Positions 17,412 through 62,959 of a DNA stretch of 64,000 bases are shown here, one piece after another (the first letter of the stretch is position 1; the number at the start of each line of letters is the position of its first letter). Location of the stretch: the NCBI RefSeq assembly GCF_026262505.1, contig NC_067208.1:18485962-18549961 (forward strand), in the 5' to 3' direction. The notes below the pieces were generated by a model. It was not told where the DNA came from, searched no databases, and worked only from the letters and a program-made list of their open reading frames with translations. Made by a program: the position numbers and the translations under genes. The DNA is from Trichomonas vaginalis G3. Lineage: Eukaryota > Parabasalia > Trichomonadida > Trichomonadidae.

Positions 17412-17474
17412 TTTTGGGGTAGGGATTTTGGGGGAGCGACCGAAGGGAGCCCCCCAAAATCCCTACCCCAAAAA
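17412..17474. repeat. Large G/C-tract palindrome
   Basis: Two arms of about 24 bp (17412-17435 and 17451-17474, starting TTTTGGGGTAGGGATTTT) are inverted copies around a short centre containing GCGACCGAAGG. The arms are far more GC-rich than the surroundings. The architecture (T/A and G/C tracts mirrored around a small centre) is like the palindrome at 57712-57781. Confidence 0.8.
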
Positions 17475-47118: not shown

Positions 47119-47540
47119 ATGCTAATTTATTTGATTCCGGGGGACACCCCGGTTATCAAATATATTTATTAAAATGGAAAATCTCTCACTTTTCGAAAAA
47201 ATCGAAACTGCAAGGATCTCCGATTCTCGATATGATAATTTATTTGATTCCGGGGGACGCCCCGGTTATCAAATATATTTATTAGAACGGAAAATCTCTC
47301 ACTTTTCGAAAAAATCGAAACTGCAAGGATCTCCGATTCTCGATATGATAATTTATTTGATTCCGGGGGACGCCCCGGTTATCAAATATATTTATTAGAA
47401 CGGAAAATCTCTCACTTTTCGAAAAAATCGAAACTGCAAGGATCTCCGATTCTCGATATGATAATTTATTTGATTCCGGGGACGCCCCGGTTATCAAATA
47501 TATTTATTAGAACGGAAAATCTCTCACTTTTCGAAATTTT
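47119..47540. repeat. 113-bp tandem repeat, about 3.6 copies
   Basis: The anchor TTGATTCCGG recurs at 47131, 47244, 47357 and 47470, exactly 113 bases apart. Each unit contains a near-perfect hairpin around CCGGGG-GACG-CCCCGG with arms extended by TATTTGAT/ATCAAATA, and a smaller one around TTTCGAAAAAATCGAAA. Units are over 95% identical, so the expansion is recent. The overlapping short open frames are artefacts of the repeat. Confidence 0.9.
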
Positions 47541-47860
47541 TTTTAACAAAAATATGGCATTCTTAAATTATAGTTACATGTTATTTCACAATCATTATCA
47601 TTAAAAAATTCAATTATTCAAGTTGTTTTGTCCCGACGGTTTTTACGGTTATAAAAATGGTTGCGAACTCAATCCATCAGCAAAATGTCGGTTGGGGTGC
47701 CCTTCTTGGCCTCCTGAGTACTCACCAAGATACCCCCAGCTCCCGCAAAACACCTCCCTTAGGTGAGCATTAACTGATGACATGAGTTAACAATTCTACA
47801 AAATCATCAAGCATGAAGGTTTATGATTTATAAATCAAAATCTCAGAAACTGCTTGACTT
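47541..47860. other. Spacer with a possible structured segment
   Basis: 47669-47799 is more GC-rich than its surroundings. It has nested complementary segments: AACTCA/TGAGTT with ATCAG/CTGAT at the outside, and GGTGAG/CTCACC further in. Not a tRNA. No gene. Confidence 0.35.
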
Positions 47861-48130
47861 TGCAAGTTGCTGTCTTTACCGGTTACTCTGCTGCAATCTC
47901 TTTTCTGATTGCAGGCAGAGTTCTGCATCCTGAGGACTTTGCCTTGCAGATATGCTTGTAATCACTACGTGAGCAACTTGGTGTTGCAAGTTGCTGTCTT
48001 TACCGGTTACTCTGCTGCAATCTCTTTTCTGATTGCAGGCAAAGTTCTGCATCCTGAGGACTTTGCCTTGCAGATATGCTTGTAATCACTACGTGAGCAA
48101 CTTGGTGTTGCAAGTTGCTGTCTTTACCGG
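47861..48130. repeat. 124-bp tandem repeat, about 2.2 copies
   Basis: TGCAAGTTGC recurs at 47861, 47985 and 48109, spacing 124. Each unit holds several inverted segments: GCAAGTTGCT/AGCAACTTG, ACTCTGC-TGCAATC to GATTGCA-GGCAGAGT, and CTGCATCC to TTGCAG. The sequence is unrelated to the 113-bp and 122-bp arrays but has nearly the same length and the same multi-hairpin design. Confidence 0.85.
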
Positions 48131-48228
48131 TTAGCTTTTTTTGAAGTTTCTTCGCATCTTATATAAGCTCTAGATCAATATTTATCATCAGAATTTGCAT
48201 CTCATAAAGCACGATATTAATCAAATAG

Positions 48229-48281
48229 GCAAATTTCATTCGGAGTCTCTCATTAAATGAGAAACTCCGAATGAGATTTGC
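48229..48281. repeat. Stem-loop, 24-bp arms
   Basis: Arms 48229-48252 and 48258-48281 (GCAAATTTCATTCGGAGT start) pair with two mismatches around a 5-base loop. Confidence 0.75.
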
Positions 48282-48919: not shown

Positions 48920-49790
48920 TGCACTCCTGACGGTCGCAGTGTCTCATTCCGGGAGACATTGCCTGTGCATGTCTCCCAGAATGGCATACTGTTCCGCATT
49001 CATAACTTGAATGCGGAACTTTGACCGACAAGAGTGCATTGTGCACTCTTGTTGGTCTGCATGTGTCATTCCGGGAGACATTGCCTGTGCATGTCTCCCA
49101 GAACGAGACATTTATTGCAATCAGAATACGATTGCAAAACTTTGACCGACAAGAGTGTATTGTGCACTCTTGTTGGTCTGCATGTGTCATTCCGGGAGAC
49201 ATTGCCTGTGCATGTCTCCCAGAATGGCATACTGTTCCGCATTCATAACTTGAATGCGGAACTTTGACCGACAAGAGTGCATTGTGCACTCTTGTTGGTC
49301 TGCATGTGTCATTCCGGGAGACATTGCCTGTGCATGTCTCCCAGAATGGACATTTATTGCAATCAGAATACGATTGCAAAACTTTGACCGACAAGAGTGT
49401 ATTGTGCACTCTTGTTGGTCTGCATGTGTCATTCCGGGAGACATTGCCTGTGCATGTCTCCCAGAATGGCATACTGTTCCGCATTCATAACTTGAATGCG
49501 GAACTTTGACCGACAAGAGTGCATTGTGCACTCTTGTTGGTCTGCATGTGTCATTCCGGGAGACATTGCCTGTGCATGTCTCCCAGAATGGCATACTGTT
49601 CCGCATTCATAACTTGAATGCGGAACTTTGACCGACAAGAGTGCATTGTGCACTCTTGTTGGTCTGCATGTGTCATTCCGGGAGACATTGCCTGTGCATG
49701 TCTCCCAGAACGAGACAATTTATTGCAATCAGAATACGATTGCAAAACTTTGACCGACAAGAGTGCATTGTGCACTCTTGTTTGTCATCC
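48920..49790 (-). repeat. 122-bp hairpin array, left block (7 units)
   Basis: Seven monomers of 119-122 bp, reading on the minus strand. Every monomer has three stem-loops: one variable, one around GGGAGACATGCACAGGCAAT/GTCTCCC, one around CAAGAGTGCA/TGCACTCTTG. The variable hairpin has two forms, P (TTCCGCATTC/GAATGCGGAA) and Q (TTGCAATCG/TGATTGCAA). From the centre of the inverted duplication outward the order is Q P P Q P Q P. All ORFs here are translations of the repeat. Confidence 0.95.
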
Positions 49791-51102
49791 ACTATGATAC
49801 TTAGAGAAAATACTTTACTTACATTATTTAAAATATTAATTTCCCTATTTAATATTTATTTATTATTTTTTGTGCTTTATATTCCCTATGGCATGTACTG
49901 AACTATTTTATAGACTCTACCGAGCTATCTCCACATATAAACATTTGACAATAACACATATATACTCTCTTCATATTCTAGTCTCATGACATATTATTGC
50001 AAAAGCTATATTTATACAGCATACCTCATAAAGTCTCATTATATCCCTATCTAAGCGTTCAAAACCTATTTTCCCCACGTAATCTGATTCTTCAGGCTCC
50101 GCTGATTCGATTTCTGCTGTCAGATCGTGAAAATATGAATCACATAACAAGATAAACACAAATCCAAAATAATAATGTTTTCTTCAAATTGACTCTTCCA
50201 CGATATTCATATATTTGTTATTAATTCCGTTTTCCCTTACAAATGTATTTAATTTTCTGAATAATACGTATTATAAAATGAATATCTCAAAAACTAAATT
50301 AAAAAATTAATACTGGGTAATAACTAGATATATTGTGACTTTTTGAATTCACACACTTTTGGAAAAAATTGAATTTTTCTAAAATGATGTTGTTTGAACA
50401 TGAACTTAAAGAGTTTTTTTACGGAAAATATCAAGTTGGGTAACTTGTGTTTATCTTGTTATGTGATTCATATTTTCACGATCTGACAGCAGAAATCGAA
50501 TCAGCGGAGCCTGAAGAATCAGATTACGTGGGGAAAATAGGTTTTGAACGCTTAGATAGGGATATAATGAGACTTTATGAGGTATGCTGTATAAATATAG
50601 CTTTTGCAATAATATGTCATGAGACTAGAATATGAAGAGAGTATATATGTGTTATTGTCAAATGTTTATATGTGGAGATAGCTCGGTAGAGTCTATAAAA
50701 TAGTTCAGTACATGCCATAGGGAATATAAAGCACAAAAAATAATAAATAAATATTAAATAGGGAAATTAATATTTTAAATAATGTAAGTAAAGTATTTTC
50801 TCTAAGTATCATAGTGGATGACAAACAAGAGTGCACAATGCACTCTTGTCGGTCAAAGTTTTGCAATCGTATTCTGATTGCAATAAATTGTCTCGTTCTG
50901 GGAGACATGCACAGGCAATGTCTCCCGGAATGACACATGCAGACCAACAAGAGTGCACAATGCACTCTTGTCGGTCAAAGTTCCGCATTCAAGTTATGAA
51001 TGCGGAACAGTATGCCATTCTGGGAGACATGCACAGGCAATGTCTCCCGGAATGACACATGCAGACCAACAAGAGTGCACAATGCACTCTTGTCGGTCAA
51101 AG
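49504..51102. repeat. Large inverted duplication centred at 50303
   Basis: The arms 49504-50162 and 50444-51102 (659 bp each) are essentially identical in inverted orientation around a 281-bp spacer. Mirror positions sum to 100606 throughout. The arms contain the innermost two array monomers plus a 370-bp unique segment. Outside these limits both sides continue as 122-bp arrays with different monomer orders, so the quasi-palindrome spans about 3.6 kb. Confidence 0.95.
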
Positions 51103-52545
51103 TTTTGCAATCGTATTCTGATTGCAATAAATTGTCTCGTTCTGGGAGACATGCACAGGCAATGTCTCCCGGAATGACACATGCAGACCAACAAGAGTGC
51201 ACAATGCACTCTTGTCGGTCAAAGTTCCGCATTCAAGTTATGAATGCGGAACAGTATGCCATTCTGGGAGACATGCACAGGCAATGTCTCCCGGAATGAC
51301 ACATGCAGACCAACAAGAGTGCACAATGCACTCTTGTCGGTCAAAGTTCCGCATTCAAGTTATGAATGCGGAACAGTATGCCATTCTGGGAGACATGCAC
51401 AGGCAATGTCTCCCGGAATGACACATGCAGACCAACAAGAGTGCACAATGCACTCTTGTCGGTCAAAGTTCCGCATTCAAGTTATGAATGCGGAACAGTA
51501 TGCCATTCTGGGAGACATGCACAGGCAATGTCTCCCGGAATGACACATGCAGACCAACAAGAGTGCACAATGCACTCTTGTCGGTCAAAGTTTTGCAATC
51601 GTATTCTGATTGCAATAAATTGTCTCGTTCTGGGAGACATGCACAGGCAATGTCTCCCGGAATGACACATGCAGACCAACAAGAGTGCACAATGCACTCT
51701 TGTCGGTCAAAGTTCCGCATTCAAGTTATGAATGCGGAACAGTATGCCATTCTGGGAGACATGCACAGGCAATGTCTCCCGGAATGACACATGCAGACCA
51801 ACAAGAGTGCACAATACACTCTTGTCGGTCAAAGTTTTGCAATCGTATTCTGATTGCAATAAATTGTCTCGTTCTGGGAGACATGCACAGGCAATGTCTC
51901 CCGGAATGACACATGCAGACCAACAAGAGTGCACAATGCACTCTTGTCGGTCAAAGTTCCGCATTCAAGTTATGAATGCGGAACAGTATGCCATTCTGGG
52001 AGACATGCACAGGCAATGTCTCCCGGAATGACACATGCAGACCAACAAGAGTGCACAATGCACTCTTGTCGGTCAAAGTTTTGCAATCGTATTCTGATTG
52101 CAATAAATTGTCTCGTTCTGGGAGACATGCACAGGCAATGTCTCCCGGAATGACACATGCAGACCAACAAGAGTGCACAATGCACTCTTGTCGGTCAAAG
52201 TTCCGCATTCAAGTTATGAATGCGGAACAGTATGCCATTCTGGGAGACATGCACAGGCAATGTCTCCCGGAATGACACATGCAGACCAACAAGAGTGCAC
52301 AATGCACTCTTGTCGGTCAAAGTTTTGCAATCGTATTCTGATTGCAATAAATTGTCTCATTCTGGGAGACATGCACAGGCAATGTCTCCCGGAATGACAC
52401 ATGCAGACCAACAAGAGTGCACAATGCACTCTTGTCGGTCAAAGTTCCGCATTCAAGTTATGAATGCGGAACAGTATGCCATTCTGGGAGACATGCACAG
52501 GCAATGTCTCCCGGAATGACACATGCAGACCAACAAGAGTGAACA
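50822..52545 (+). repeat. 122-bp hairpin array, right block (14 units)
   Basis: Fourteen monomers, spacing 122 bp almost without exception, same three-hairpin design as the left block. The order of the variable hairpin is Q P Q P P P Q P Q P Q P Q P, so P and Q alternate except for one run of three P. Monomers of one type differ at very few positions. The array ends at 52545 in a degenerate last unit. Confidence 0.95.
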
Positions 52546-53925
52546 ATCCGCTTTCTCCTTTGAAATCCAACATTCTAATCACATCTACATTAATAAATTG
52601 TTATAAAATACTAATCAAAGATCCAATACAATTCTACTATCTTATTCACACATTACCAATGTTAACACCTCTTATAACTTAAATTATTTCATAAAATTTG
52701 TTTTTATATCTTATTATTTTCTCATAATGCTTCTAATACATCTCTAATTTCTTACATTCAAACACCAATATCGTCATACTATCATAAGCACTTAATTTTT
52801 TCAAAATTTTAGACTTAAATTTGAGCTACATTTTCATCATCATTTTTAGCCTTAAGCTTCTATAAGGTTATAATACATTATCGTAATATTCTAATATTTA
52901 TGATTCTTACTACTCAATTCAATATAATCATATAAGTCACTCATAATCAGGAGCATAATTTAAAAATCTATAGCTCATATTTTGACAATTATATATATAG
53001 ATGATGCATATTGCAATTCCGGTTTCAACACGATCAAATGTCAAACCATGATAAAATATATATCAATTTACAAAATATCGATTAACATTAGAATCCATAT
53101 CTAATTCCATCAATGCACAAGTTGTAAATGCTTAATTCATCTTTGAGAAACGTGAATAGCACAATTTTATAAGATTATTTGTTGAATATTTAAAATATAA
53201 GCCAAATCGAATCTGCTGTATATTACTTTAGTTATCCATTGAATGTTAAATGTGTTCATAAATATTTGAGTCAGATATCGCATTTTCTAATTTCAAAATT
53301 TATCTCATGAAGTTAGAATTTATTTGATCATACAACATCATATTAGTCAAACTAGAGTTCAATCGCGATTCCAAAATGGAACAATTGCTTGTTTTATCAA
53401 AATGTTAAAATATTAATCTAAAAAACTTAATATCTAACCAAAACATTCTAGAAATATCATATACAGGTATATGCAATCTAAATGCACACGAAATACTGAA
53501 AATTAAAAAGAATATTTATGAGATTATTAAATCTTATGCATTTCAATGAAGAGTCGATAATTATCATCTCTATAGGTTATATATCAACATATGAGTTTTT
53601 GGATTGACCACTACTATACTAATGTGATCAAATTAATCTGATTTCTTGAATTTTCATTTGAAGCATTCGCAGTAGTAGGAGTACCTTCATATATTAACAT
53701 ATTAAAAAATTGCGCCCAGATTCGCAGTTTAATCATGATTTTAAGATTGCATTAGATTTCGAAATGCAGAAAAAAATCACTTTAGATTCCCTTCAAACTC
53801 TAAGCATAAGCATGTCTCTATATGAGGAAACTATTTGAGCTATTCATTTGGCGGCCCAAAAACTCATGTTGCCTGAGCGCAGAAAATACCAATTTTTGGA
53901 CCCTGGGTAGGGGGTCATGCATGTT
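52546..53925. other. Non-coding AT-rich right part of the block
   Basis: No gene and no repeat seen over about 1.4 kb, up to the right inverted repeat at 53926. Confidence 0.5.
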
Positions 53926-54090: not shown

Positions 54091-54312
54091 GTCATAAGTA
54101 CAATATCTATTCAGTCTAGCTACTAGCATACAGTAGCAAGATTGAATAGATATTGTACTTATGGCCATAATAGATTATCGGAATTGCTCTCTTGCGCTAT
54201 AATAAACTACTTCTCCCCGATCCCAGCAAAGTTTCATGGGTGCTTGTGTGCTATGATTTGGCAAAGTCCTTCCGAAGTCTCTCTTTCGATTAGAGACTTC
54301 AGAAGGACCTTG
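54091..54312. repeat. Two stem-loops downstream of the block
   Basis: First: CATAAGTACAATATCTATTC starting near 54091 pairs with GAATAGATATTGTACTTATG ending at about 54163, with a partly paired interior. Second: arms 54262-54282 and 54292-54312 (CAAAGTCCTTCCGAAGTCTCT type), 21 bp with a few mismatches around a 9-base loop. Arm and loop sizes match the hairpins of the 59.4-60.7 kb array. Confidence 0.75.
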
Positions 54313-54869
54313 TCTTAAAGAACTCTTACTATATTTAAATAGTCAGAGGAGTTATTTCACTATTAAGACATATATTATCCAAGGTCCCTCATTTAATTAT
54401 CTGTTATTCATTAATTAGCGCATTTGTCTTTCGATCAGAAAGTAAATATTTCTCTTCAATAATATTATAGAAGTTATAGAAAAAGATGTAATGATCTAGA
54501 TATTTACATAGATTTACATAATAAGTCAATTATTTCTTTACAAATATAAACAAATAATAAGTTTAAGAAGTATTGGACAATCCGTATGATTTGAAACTTT
54601 TCTTTCAAGCACAAGTTAAAATTAATTAAGGAAATCTCCTTTGTCTATTAAATTTTAGTGTAAAATTTTGTGTTATTCTTTTGAATGGGAATTAATTGAA
54701 AGAATTTCGATCTTTGGGAATTATCTGATTATTTTTTGAGTTAGTTGTATATAATTTCTACTTGGTATAAAAATTTTAACTTGAAAATTCATGAAAACTA
54801 AATCTTATGCTTGAAATGAGGCGATACTTTCTGGAATATAAGTCTTGTACAAAAATTGCAATTTTTTTT
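54313..54869. other. Intergenic, no gene seen
   Basis: AT-rich. Weak inverted similarity of TGTCTTAA near 54311 and TTAAGACA near 54364 may be a third, poorer hairpin. Confidence 0.4.
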
Positions 54870-59010: not shown

Positions 59011-61034
59011 CATATTGTTGCATGCTAAGTTCGGTCAACAATAGGAATTGAGGGGAAATTAATCGTCGAGGAAGTACGATTATGTAAAGTAAAAAATGTT
59101 GTGGGATTTTTAATATTGTATATAATTTTATAATAAAATTTTTGTGAGACATTTTAAGAAGCACATATAATTTTTTGAATTTAAAAATTAAAGTAGTGTT
59201 GAATGAATTTATTGATTAATTTAATACGGATATTTCTCAAAATTAATCAAAAATAGGTTTTCAGAGAACTTTTGAGATATCTTTTCAAAATGTCTTTTTG
59301 AAAATATATAAGTATTATATCAAATTGAAAAAAGGTATTTATCAAAATTCTAAATTCTTAATAAAAAATAACTTTTCAGAGGATTGTGATTTTGAAAGCA
59401 TGAGTAATAAGTAAAAAATATCTACGATTTTAATGAGGGAATTGTTCCTTATGAGGTATACATTATAACTATATACCTCATAAGGAACAATTCCCTCTTG
59501 ATAGCTGGGAAACTTTCTCTGAATAACTTATCATTTGGAGAAAGTTTCCCAGCTATCTATTAGAAACTAAAGGCTGTGAGGCACTAATATATAATCAGTG
59601 CCTCATAGCCTTTAGTTTCTTATTAAAAACGAGAAAACTTGTTCGAAATGATAAACAATTTCGAACAAGTTTTCTCGTTTTAAGGAGGGAATTGTTCCTT
59701 ATGAGGTATACAGTATGAATATATACCTCATAAGGAACAATTCCCTCTTGATAGCTGGGAAACTTTCTCTGAATAACTTATCATTTGGACAGAAAAAGTG
59801 ACACTTTACATGGCAAAAAATAGAGCCTTACTTTTGAGATACTTGAGATTGAAACTGAATCTTATGAGGCGGTGATCTTGAATCACTACCTCATAAGGTT
59901 CAGTTTCATATAAAATTTGTTGCAATTTGTTATTCTTTTGCAATTATTTCTTATAAGATTTTACATCTTTTAGCGGGGAATGTTTGTTATCATGTATATA
60001 TTATAAATATCTACACGATAACGAACATTCCTCGCTAAATTGCTGAGAAACTTTGAGGAAATGTCGAACAATTTCCTCAAAGTTTCTCAGATTTATATAG
60101 ATCACTAGAGTCCACTAGGCACTGATTCTGGTTCAGTACCTAGGAGGCTCTAGTTCTCTAACGAACTGATAAAATGTTTTTAAATTTTTGGATATTGCTA
60201 CCTGTGAAGCACTGACTTCAAGTCAGTACCTCACAGGTAGCAATTACATTGAAAGATGGGAGAAACTTTCTCCGAATGTTAAACTATTCGGACAAAGTTT
60301 CTCACATTTGTAGTGGAGATGGAAGGCTTTGAGGTATATTGTATTAATATATACCCAAAGCCTTCCATCTCCACTTGAAAGTGTCCAAACTTTGGGTTAA
60401 TACTTTGCAATTAACCCAAAGTTTGGACACTTTCTAGAAGGAATTGGAGGTAAGAGATATACATTCATATGGTATATCTCTTACCCTCCAATTCCTTCTT
60501 AAAATGGGAGAAACTTTGTCCGAATGTTAAACTATTCGGACAAAGTTTCTCCCATTTTTTGAAGGAATTGGAGGCTATGAGATACTGATGCAATGTCAGT
60601 AACTCATGGCTTCCAATTCCTTCCTAAAACTCATAAAGTGGACATTACATGCATATAAAATTTGACATGTAAAGTCCACTTTTTGTGAGCGGGATTTGAC
60701 GGAGTCAAATCCCCTTTTTCGTTTACGAGAAAGCCAAATTCTCTCAAAAAGTTAAGTAGGACCAATTTTTTATAAAAAAAATCCAATTTCATTATGAATG
60801 TTAATTAATTTATATAATTATTGAATAAAAAATTTTCTTTGAGATTATGAAAAGTTCTTTGAAAAGTTATTTTTTCTCATTTTTAAATATTGTATTAGCC
60901 TATTTATTTATAATCCAAATTAAATAACTTTAAATTCAATATTTAAAGAATAATTTTGAAGGAATTGAGTTACTTCCCCCGACGATAAAATTGAGAGGTT
61001 TACATTTTGACCGAACTTAGCATGCAACAATATG
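59011..61034. mobile_element. 2.0-kb block with perfect 28-bp terminal inverted repeats around a hairpin array
   Basis: 59011-59038 (starts CATATTGTTGCATGCTAAGT) and 61007-61034 are perfect inverted copies. Weaker inverted similarity continues inward (ATCGTCG then GAAGTA, about 21-24 bases further on both sides). If the true ends are at TTGTTGC, both are flanked by TA. No gene lies inside; the centre is the hairpin array 59435-60713. The structure is that of a non-autonomous DNA transposon, with the array as cargo or as amplified internal sequence. Confidence 0.6.
59435..60713. repeat. Tandem array of about 18 stem-loops of two alternating kinds
   Basis: Successive hairpins: 59435-59497 (26-bp perfect arms), 59500-59557 (20), 59562-59620 (24, one G-T), 59626-59681 (24), 59685-59747 (26, copy of the first), a half hairpin at 59750, 59851-59907 (26), 59971-60037 (26), 60043-60090 (20), 60104-60154 (22), 60194-60244 (22), 60256-60307 (22), 60312-60375 (27-28), 60377-60434 (24), 60436-60499 (27-28), 60501-60558 (25), 60561-60623 (28), 60635-60682 (17), 60691-60713 (10). 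Kind A has an apex GAGGTATA/TATACCTC or GGCACTGA/TCAGTACC. Kind B has GAAACTTTGTCC or similar near the apex with an AT loop. A and B alternate, and A recurs about every 120-127 bases with a few irregular steps. Confidence 0.95.
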
Positions 61035-61387: not shown

Positions 61388-62959
61388 ATGGTAAGAATTC
61401 AGCTTGATAATTCAATACTCCAGAGGATTAATACTTACCAAATCCATGATACTGTTATATTGACAGTCAATAAAAAAGAAATCGAGTTACATAAATCCAT
61501 GGCAATCGCACTTTCCCAAAAATTTTGTGCAGAATATCAATTAAACAACGAAATATCGAAAATTCAGATTAACACTGATATTGCATCACAAGATACATAT
61601 AGAGTATTAGAATCTATACTTCAATATAACATTCAAGAAATCGAATGCAATGAAACTGTTTTAACAGATCTTGCCCATGTTGGAATACAACTGCAGATCA
61701 AGGAATTAACTGATTTATACAAAAATAATATTGCAGAAAGATTGAAATTGGATGAAAATACTTGCGTAAAAATGCTTGAATTCTACGTCGGTATTGACGA
61801 CAAGAAAAAGATACAGGAGTGCATTGACTTTATCTCTTCTCATTTCTACAAAATTGACGAATCTCAGCTTAGTGCAATTGCCAAAAATTTTGGATTCGAT
61901 ATTTTTGAAAAGATACTTGGTAATGAAAAACTCGGCATATTAGATGAAGATTCTTTAGCTAGATTCATCTTTTCTCTTGTTAAAGAAAGTGAATCTTTCA
62001 ATCCATTGATCGAATACATCAATTTTGAATTTTGCAGCGACGAAATCATTGATTTAATTGATGAGTTAGACGATGGCAATAATTGTTTCAATTATAACAA
62101 AGCACTTCGTCATTCATTAAAGAGATCAAAAAATCCAAACAATAACAATAACCATTTTTCATGGTGGAATGAAATTATGAATAAAATCAGAACAAGTAAT
62201 TTCGAAACAAGCTACAGATTCCTTGATGAACTCACAGAAAAAGGAAGTCAAACAGTTATACCAAAGGCATCAAAAGAAATTCTTGATGAAAAGAAAAACA
62301 AATATGGTCAAACAATGCTTAATGAAGCAACTACAAAAGGTAATCTGAAACTTATCAAAGCACTCATTGAATGTGGTGTTAACATTGAAACGAAAGATAG
62401 CTATGGATATACCCCACTCATTAACGCGGCAGAAAAAGGTTTCCTTGATATTGTTAAGTATTATCTTTCAATTGGAGCAAATATCGAAGCTAGAAATAAC
62501 AGCGGAAGCACAGCACTTATTGCAGCAGTATATAATGATCATTTAGATGTTGTTAAATATCTAATCTTTGCAGGAGCTAATATAGAAGCAAGGGATAATG
62601 ATGGGTACACTTCACTAATTGTTGCATCATTTTGTGACAAAATTGATATCGTTAAATACCTTATTTCTGTTGGAGCTAATAAAGAGGCAAAGAAGAATAA
62701 TGGGCTAACTTCACTTATTGCTGCAGCTTATAATGGAAATATTGAAGTTGTGGAATATCTTATCAAAGAAGGCGCTAATATTGAAGCAAAAGATAACGAA
62801 GGATGGACTCCTCTTATTGCTGCATCGTTTAATGATCATCTTGAAGTTGCACAATGCCTTATCAAAGCTGGAGCTGATAAATTAGCAATGGATAATAATG
62901 GTATCACAGCTCTTTCACATGCAAAAGTTAATGTATTGAAATATCTAAAAACTATCTGA
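61388..62959 (+). CDS. BTB-like N-terminus plus ankyrin-repeat protein
   Basis: 523 residues from MVRIQLDNSIL; TCAATTTTTTTGGAAAATGG upstream provides an initiator-like TCA. Residues about 10-120 look like a divergent BTB domain (HDTVILTVNKKEIELHKSMA, LSQKFCAEYQL, TYRVLESILQY). A helical region follows to about 300, with an Asn-rich insert (NPNNNNNHF). Then about six ankyrin repeats (GVNIETKDSYGYTPLINAAE, GANIEARNNSGSTALIAAVY, and so on) run to the C-terminus. This two-part layout is typical of a very large trichomonad family; the frame is intact, unlike the three DUF3447 copies in this window. Function unknown. Confidence 0.85.
   Translation: MVRIQLDNSILQRINTYQIHDTVILTVNKKEIELHKSMAIALSQKFCAEYQLNNEISKIQINTDIASQDTYRVLESILQYNIQEIECNETVLTDLAHVGIQLQIKELTDLYKNNIAERLKLDENTCVKMLEFYVGIDDKKKIQECIDFISSHFYKIDESQLSAIAKNFGFDIFEKILGNEKLGILDEDSLARFIFSLVKESESFNPLIEYINFEFCSDEIIDLIDELDDGNNCFNYNKALRHSLKRSKNPNNNNNHFSWWNEIMNKIRTSNFETSYRFLDELTEKGSQTVIPKASKEILDEKKNKYGQTMLNEATTKGNLKLIKALIECGVNIETKDSYGYTPLINAAEKGFLDIVKYYLSIGANIEARNNSGSTALIAAVYNDHLDVVKYLIFAGANIEARDNDGYTSLIVASFCDKIDIVKYLISVGANKEAKKNNGLTSLIAAAYNGNIEVVEYLIKEGANIEAKDNEGWTPLIAASFNDHLEVAQCLIKAGADKLAMDNNGITALSHAKVNVLKYLKTI

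Follow-up and report, generated by a model that had tools for sequence, protein, structure and literature searches.

The array of hairpins at positions 59435 to 60713 of the window (the whole stretch of 64,000 nucleotides that was analysed) is real. It lies inside a mobile DNA element of Trichomonas vaginalis, namely a transposase-less copy of an IS481EU-type DNA transposon, and forms part of it. The array is read as a putative DNA-level, length-constrained cis-acting module of this transposon, with about six helical turns per hairpin, and a probability of roughly 0.45 is given to this reading.

The original prediction of about 18 consecutive hairpins at 59435-60713 held: the hairpin scan found 18 hairpins, while dinucleotide shuffles (n = 20) gave 0 to 2, with none in 15 of the 20. 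A stricter scan gave 15 hairpins in the array versus 0 in each of 20 shuffles; it found 0 hairpins in four of five other 1.37-kb pieces of the window, and the remaining piece, at 50000, overlaps another palindrome array of a different kind. Comparison of the fold with shuffled sequence, a check named in the prediction, placed 59435-60434 far below the shuffles, with z of about -44 as RNA and about -41 as DNA (20 shuffles each). The statement that nearly every base belongs to a hairpin was too strong, since the 18 hairpins cover about 990 of 1,279 bases (77%), with gaps of 100, 60 and 39 bases between hairpins. The near-copies that had been pointed out (59435/59685, 60256/60501 and the common arms of 60436 and 60561) were found to be real. 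The 62.5-bp spacing of hairpin centres, the transposon around the array and its copies across the genome go beyond the original prediction.

By sequence, the array in the window consists of ten A hairpins, six B hairpins, one hairpin of a third kind (C) and one short hairpin. Most A hairpins carry a TGAGGYA-like core close to the loop, while the B hairpins have AAACTT at mid-stem and AAT ahead of an 8-base loop. The alternation of A and B that had been described is kept strictly at 59435-59749 and 60194-60623 but fails at 59750-59968 and 60155-60193. The hairpin scan and the spacing divide the array into three blocks. The first (59435..59749) contains the hairpins A B A B A with centres 62.5 bp apart and is also found in elements of 944-951 bp and in L075, a transposase-bearing element. 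It is followed by a partnerless B left arm and then a AAAAAGTGACA..TTTACATG stretch (59750..59849), a junction to a second array segment as judged by eye against the array-bearing insertion in the copy L072. The second block (59850..60154) is irregular, with A (59850), A (59969), B (60043) and A (60104), and the third (60194..60623) has seven alternating hairpins, A B A B A B A, with centres 61.5-62.5 bp apart; in it the A hairpins at 60312 and 60436 are each one base shorter in the window copy than in most others. The hairpin scan places the C hairpin at 60635..60682 and the short hairpin at 60691..60713 (forward strand), followed by a T run. Comparison of copies showed that the 3-base loop of this last hairpin (GGA at 60701-60703) is the exact reverse complement of the TCC of most copies.

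Where it is regular, the array is a 125-bp tandem repeat; its unit consists of an A palindrome followed by a different one, B, with 62.5 bp between their centres. Steps of 62.5 bp between hairpin centres were found in L075 (10 of 10) and in L077, an element of a second family (6 of 6). Nine of the 12 steps between A/B neighbours in the window are also of 62.5 bp, while the others are of 61.5-62 bp, where the window copy lacks two bases that most copies have. The array borne by L072 has steps of 62-63.5 bp, and among the 13 elements of 944-951 bp all steps are of 62.5 bp in nine, with deviations of up to 1 bp in four. The stems vary in length from 20 to 28 bp, and the 62.5-bp pitch is therefore not set by them; 62.5 bp is about six turns of B-DNA. 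Back-to-back insertion of independent small palindromic elements is a very improbable origin of such an array, since A and B units align almost gap-free at constant offsets and alternate strictly in L075 and L077, as in a tandem repeat. In its favour, the 2-kb element of the window combines array segments of different origin (break at 59750-59849), and L072 has one array-bearing element inserted into another. The genome search showed that the A/B alternation recurs in other elements, contrary to the view that the arms are ordinary dispersed repeats brought together at random.

The array occupies the middle of a whole non-autonomous IS481EU-type transposon of 2,014 bp at 59016..61029 (forward strand), delimited by 23-bp inverted ends and a 4-bp target-site duplication (TSD), with the same ends on the transposase-bearing L075. 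The ends are a 23-bp perfect inverted repeat, TGTTGCATGCTAAGTTCGGTCAA on the left (59016..59038, forward strand) and its partner on the right (61007..61029, reverse strand). Comparison of copies (L001 being the window copy) identified the duplication ATAT at 59012..59015 and at 61030..61033. An open frame with ankyrin repeats lies at 61388-62959 of the window, about 360 bp downstream of the element.

A DNA search of the T. vaginalis G3 genome (180.9 Mb, 86 contigs) gave 39 full-length matches to the query at 98-100% and one partial match among the best 40 of 1,271 first-look candidates, and the copy counts are lower bounds because only these 40 were scored. Full-length elements of 2,007-2,023 bp were present at 35 of the 40 loci examined, the window copy included, and the other five were truncated or interrupted. 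An exact 4-bp TSD flanked 32 of the 35 full-length copies, while the other three had a 5-bp or tip-shifted duplication by eye. Each of the 35 copies differs from the majority sequence by about 5 substitutions, and the burst of the 2-kb element is therefore recent. Presumably Maverick-like sequence, recognised by eye, lies within the transposase gene of one copy of the family (L071) and beside the hairpin array of another (L074).

The window element is assigned to the IS481EU type because the same ends bound L075, which has an IS481-type transposase. L075 contains an open transposase frame of 349 codons and an array of 11 hairpins in perfect alternation, starting 78 bp past the transposase stop. 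The best NCBIfam match of this transposase was NF033577 transpos_IS481 (E 3e-28, 99 bits, below the curated cut-off of 224). IS481 was also the best NCBIfam match of the L077 transposase (E 9e-28, below the curated cut-off), and NF033577 transpos_IS481 that of L079, a relative at 30% identity. The transposases match Pfam integrase cores, and a D-D-E-like triad was seen by motif. Frames related to the L075 transposase are numerous in the genome. According to the available text of Kojima and Bao (2023, PMC10045372), IS481EU are DNA transposons of parabasalids with an IS481-like DDD/E transposase, TNT..AYA termini, terminal inverted repeats (TIRs) mostly <50 bp and TSDs of about 4, 15 or 25 bp; the same text gives both autonomous and non-autonomous families for T. 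vaginalis and names Banshee as a likely IS481EU transposon. The element studied here agrees with that description in its TGT..ACA ends, its exact 23-bp TIR, its 4-bp TSDs, the IS481-type transposase of L075 and its parabasalid host (PMC10045372, available text).

The end sequence of the element occurs 383 times in the genome at <=2 mismatches. Short elements with both ends were found at 18 of 30 end-sequence loci, comprising 13 of 944-951 bp, two of 697-699 bp and three of 258 bp, with exact TSDs in 17 of the 18. The 944-951-bp elements contain five hairpins in twelve cases and four in one, those of 697-699 bp contain one hairpin, and those of 258 bp contain none. The junction specific to the 947/699-bp kinds had 235 matches in the genome, while the corresponding junction of the 258-bp kind, which is the only form found to lack the array, had 3. 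Two of the 258-bp copies are one segmental duplication, and blastn of the flanks showed that the third has short flanks in common with them. The rarity of the array-less form (3 copies, two of them one segmental duplication) against these 235 matches argues for the cis-acting module. The one-hairpin elements of 697-699 bp stand at two sites with TSDs, and a long array is therefore not needed for presence at a site.

The main rival to the cis-acting module is a neutral passenger, in which a palindromic minisatellite, selfish or inert, has become trapped in the transposon. Arms would then stay complementary because replication or repair corrects a mismatched hairpin using its other arm as template, and units would be spread by unequal exchange and conversion. 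This rival is considered possible but on the doubtful side. The varying size of the arrays counts in its favour, with 0, 1 or 5 hairpins in short forms and 7 and 11 in the transposase-bearing elements.

The same alternating two-hairpin array design is present in a second family and in a third, transposase-less kind of element. The families with a transposase are represented by one complete element each (L075 and L077). The L077 transposase is about 49% identical to that of L075, and the element has seven alternating hairpins and the ends TGTTACATATTAAGTTCTGTCAA, the right end being slightly different; its flanks are ATAT and CTAT, which makes an imperfect TSD. In both families the array is located 3' of the transposase gene. 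The arms in L077 are nearly equal to those of the first family, while unit order, loops and gene strands show that the array is oriented oppositely to that of L075 with respect to the transposase. These near-equal arms in opposite orientation indicate that array segments have passed between the families. The third kind was first met as an insertion in a copy of the 2-kb element (L072) and has the ends TGTTATATACG. Its left end of 182 bp is identical in all of the best 40 of 431 candidates, and its A/B arrays have other arms and varying numbers of 250-bp (A B A B) units; such differences in unit number despite identical left ends among the best 40 of 431 also favour the neutral passenger. Both ends were located in three copies, of which two have matching 4-bp flanks and one has differing flanks. 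The assignment of this kind rests on its ends and TSDs because no transposase of its own was found. In L079, no A/B array was found, and 121-bp direct repeats are present at both ends instead; they form inverted arrays (L079:1-751 and 2298-2619) with a period near that of the 125-bp array and without long hairpins. A GAATTG motif common to element ends and A arms, noted by eye, was too weak to be retained.

The arms vary widely between units and are mostly still complementary (143 two-sided, 16 one-sided and 44 unpaired cells). In the B stems (10 units), 96.3% of 244 cells pair, with 62 two-sided, 4 one-sided and 9 unpaired cells; two-sided changes occur at 16 of 25 stem pairs, variation on one side only at none, and 8 pairs are invariant. 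In the A stems (14 units), 89.9% of 345 cells pair, with 81 two-sided, 12 one-sided and 35 unpaired cells. The one-sided share of changed paired cells is thus 4 of 66 in B and 12 of 93 in A. None of 500 shuffles reached the observed covariation values and sliding the partner by one column destroyed the signal, while relatedness between units inflates such tests. When divergent units were compared directly, both arms of B units differed at 178 positions (156 paired in both units) and one arm at 41; both arms of A units differed at 338 positions (228 paired in both) and one arm at 216, two of the A units being shifted by window-specific deletions. Pairing with the own arm was 0.92 (B) and 0.79 (A) versus 0.53 and 0.50, respectively, with the arm of another unit. 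Some pairs (AAA, TT, AAT) are the same in all ten B units while their neighbours covary. Invariant pairs next to freely covarying ones suggest a recognised sequence plus required pairing, and uniform drift with correction, as the neutral passenger would have it, does not predict such a pattern.

In the 35 young copies, substitutions per site per copy were 0.0022 in arms, 0.0019 in flanks and 0.0056 in loops. Arms change no slower than flanks, and the copies are therefore not individually constrained, which counts for the neutral passenger and against the cis-acting module. One-sided changes at Watson-Crick pairs numbered 42 in the 35 copies (11 G-T, 6 A-C and 25 other), and there were 34 distinct array indels, some of which may be assembly error, versus 83 distinct substitutions. 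Stem length is unchanged among the ten B units, across which at least 36 further pair types occur. This stability, although indels are common in young copies, supports the cis-acting module, and the nearly fixed stem length and pitch likewise stand against the neutral passenger.

Copy-level compensatory doubles were found in five cells. Three of these belong to one hairpin of L069, both arms of which changed at three pairs to the arms of L075; they were set aside as a unit swap, though the loop is neither that of L075 nor that of the majority. The double in L066 was rejected as a shifted stretch and that in L068 as not a Watson-Crick pair. The joint change of both arms in L069 fits the neutral passenger, while the lack of any clear in-place compensatory pair elsewhere among the 35 copies speaks against it. 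The loop of the last hairpin was exactly inverted in 3 of the 35 copies (3 of 627 loop cells), namely the window copy, L002 and L045, and one loop was inverted in L080. Hairpin events on DNA thus do occur, and these inversions are also compatible with the neutral passenger.

Damage builds up in the copies and is rare in the lineages that founded families, and our reading is that selection among copies may favour intact, correctly spaced palindromes. Correction during transposition could act like such selection. Under the cis-acting module, each palindrome would lie about six helical turns from the next, and the transposase or a host protein would bind the palindromes from one side of the double helix; alternatively, the palindromes may be extruded as hairpins in supercoiled or single-stranded element DNA. 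Recognition of the palindromes would help the element to propagate, and copies with decayed palindromes or spacing would leave fewer descendants, so that arms stay complementary and the pitch constant while arm sequences drift. The array number would shift through unequal exchange, and array segments would pass between families through recombination. The fuller proposal, that the phased two-palindrome array is a functional modular cis-element of eukaryotic IS481-type transposons, that its palindromes are recognised either as DNA hairpins or as sites phased at six-turn intervals, that damaged copies fail to propagate and that arrays are exchanged between families, is tentative.

Other observations count against the cis-acting module. 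One-arm differences are common in A units (216 versus 338 two-arm differences), the IS481EU relative L079 is without such an array, and the window array is irregular in its middle. In addition, if the palindromes are kept up by hairpin-templated repair, part of the apparent signal of selection would arise in this way, and the loop inversions show that hairpin events happen.

A role as RNA, in which the array would be transcribed and the product would act through its structure or give rise to small RNAs, with the steering or evasion of Argonaute silencing as an example, is unlikely, more so than the neutral passenger. The RNA fold (z about -44) and the pair covariation agree with it, and so does the strand antisense to the transposase, which shows a weak excess of G-U; as a test of the transcribed strand, this G-U versus A-C bias was discarded, since it is weak and dominated by outer, non-independent positions. 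One-sided changes are few (4 of 66 in B and 12 of 93 in A), and the opposite orientation of the arrays relative to the transposase in L075 and L077 stands against an RNA. T. vaginalis messages end soon after the stop codon, and the array therefore need not be in the transposase mRNA. None of the 150 listed of 187 Rfam matches reached its gathering score, and no curated microRNA family among them was above its score. A point in favour of an RNA role is that T. vaginalis possesses PIWI-like Argonautes, as well as small RNAs that map over its transposon families (PMC7845603). In two studies its small RNAs have a modal length of 34 nt (in one of them for unique reads only, total reads peaking at 29, 32 and 36), longer than the arms (20-28 bp), and microRNAs are nearly absent from the published profiles (PMC7845603, PMC7844918); a 5' U bias is also described. 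The published sizes argue against reads of 20-24 nt in phase with the arms, and microRNA-like precursors are disfavoured as the identity of the array. The DNA-level reading is preferred over RNA because of the near-fixed pitch despite variable stems, the few one-sided (wobble) changes, the independence of orientation, the loop inversions and the presence of arrays in transposase-less copies. Among the identities first offered (small-RNA precursors, a long structured RNA or a DNA structure), a DNA structure thus appears to fit best, while precursors of the microRNA kind fit badly.

Fold-back transposons and MITEs with tandem repeats have ends or interiors built of repeats, and the long inverted ends of fold-back elements are composed of direct repeats. 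Here, in contrast, each repeat unit is made of two palindromes and lies in the interior of the element. The nearest design analogue, which is not a relative, is the BIME made of REP palindromes. BIMEs are described in the available text of PMC2817692 as regularly spaced palindromes in alternating orientations with binding sites for several proteins, and the array of the window type also has palindromes in an alternating arrangement with regular spacing. BIMEs are bacterial and go with tyrosine transposases (PMC2817692, available text), whereas the present array alternates two different palindromes and belongs to a eukaryotic transposon of the integrase type (DDE). Two hairpin kinds in tandem are also known from fungi and sponges, in mitochondrial repetitive or double-hairpin elements, which are possibly mobile and show a few complementary substitutions; these are organellar, and the available text of PMC2800124 mentions no enclosing transposon, fixed pitch or long alternation. 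The kind of transposon is already published, and no description of the array was found in the open literature covered, mostly titles and abstract openings; the main text of PMC10045372 contains no word beginning with hairpin, palindrom or tandem. Two exact hairpin patterns had no match in viral contigs.

Should the array act as a cis module, a eukaryotic DNA transposon would be seen to contain an internal control element of a new kind, with a geometry conserved more than its sequence, in a genome of which about 63% is repeats (PMC7845603). The many near-identical copies with different array lengths also offer a natural experiment between selection for palindromes and templated correction. If the array is neutral, it would show palindromic minisatellites spreading and swapping between transposon families.

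Other palindromes were also observed in the window. A second, different palindrome array at 48920-49786 and 50820-52547 is a 122-bp minisatellite with about 7 and 14 units, respectively, inverted around a palindromic centre. Its unit contains three palindromes, one of which alternates between two palindromic versions. The palindromic centre of the 48920-52547 array is dispersed, with 33 places at 98-100% and 7 near 85% among the best 40 of 282 candidates. Short tandem repeats of 124 and 113 bp with palindromes inside are located at 47860-48133 and 47119-47536, respectively, and isolated long perfect or near-perfect hairpins outside the A/B array are located at 54095-54161, 54260-54314, 48229-48281 and 17412-17473.
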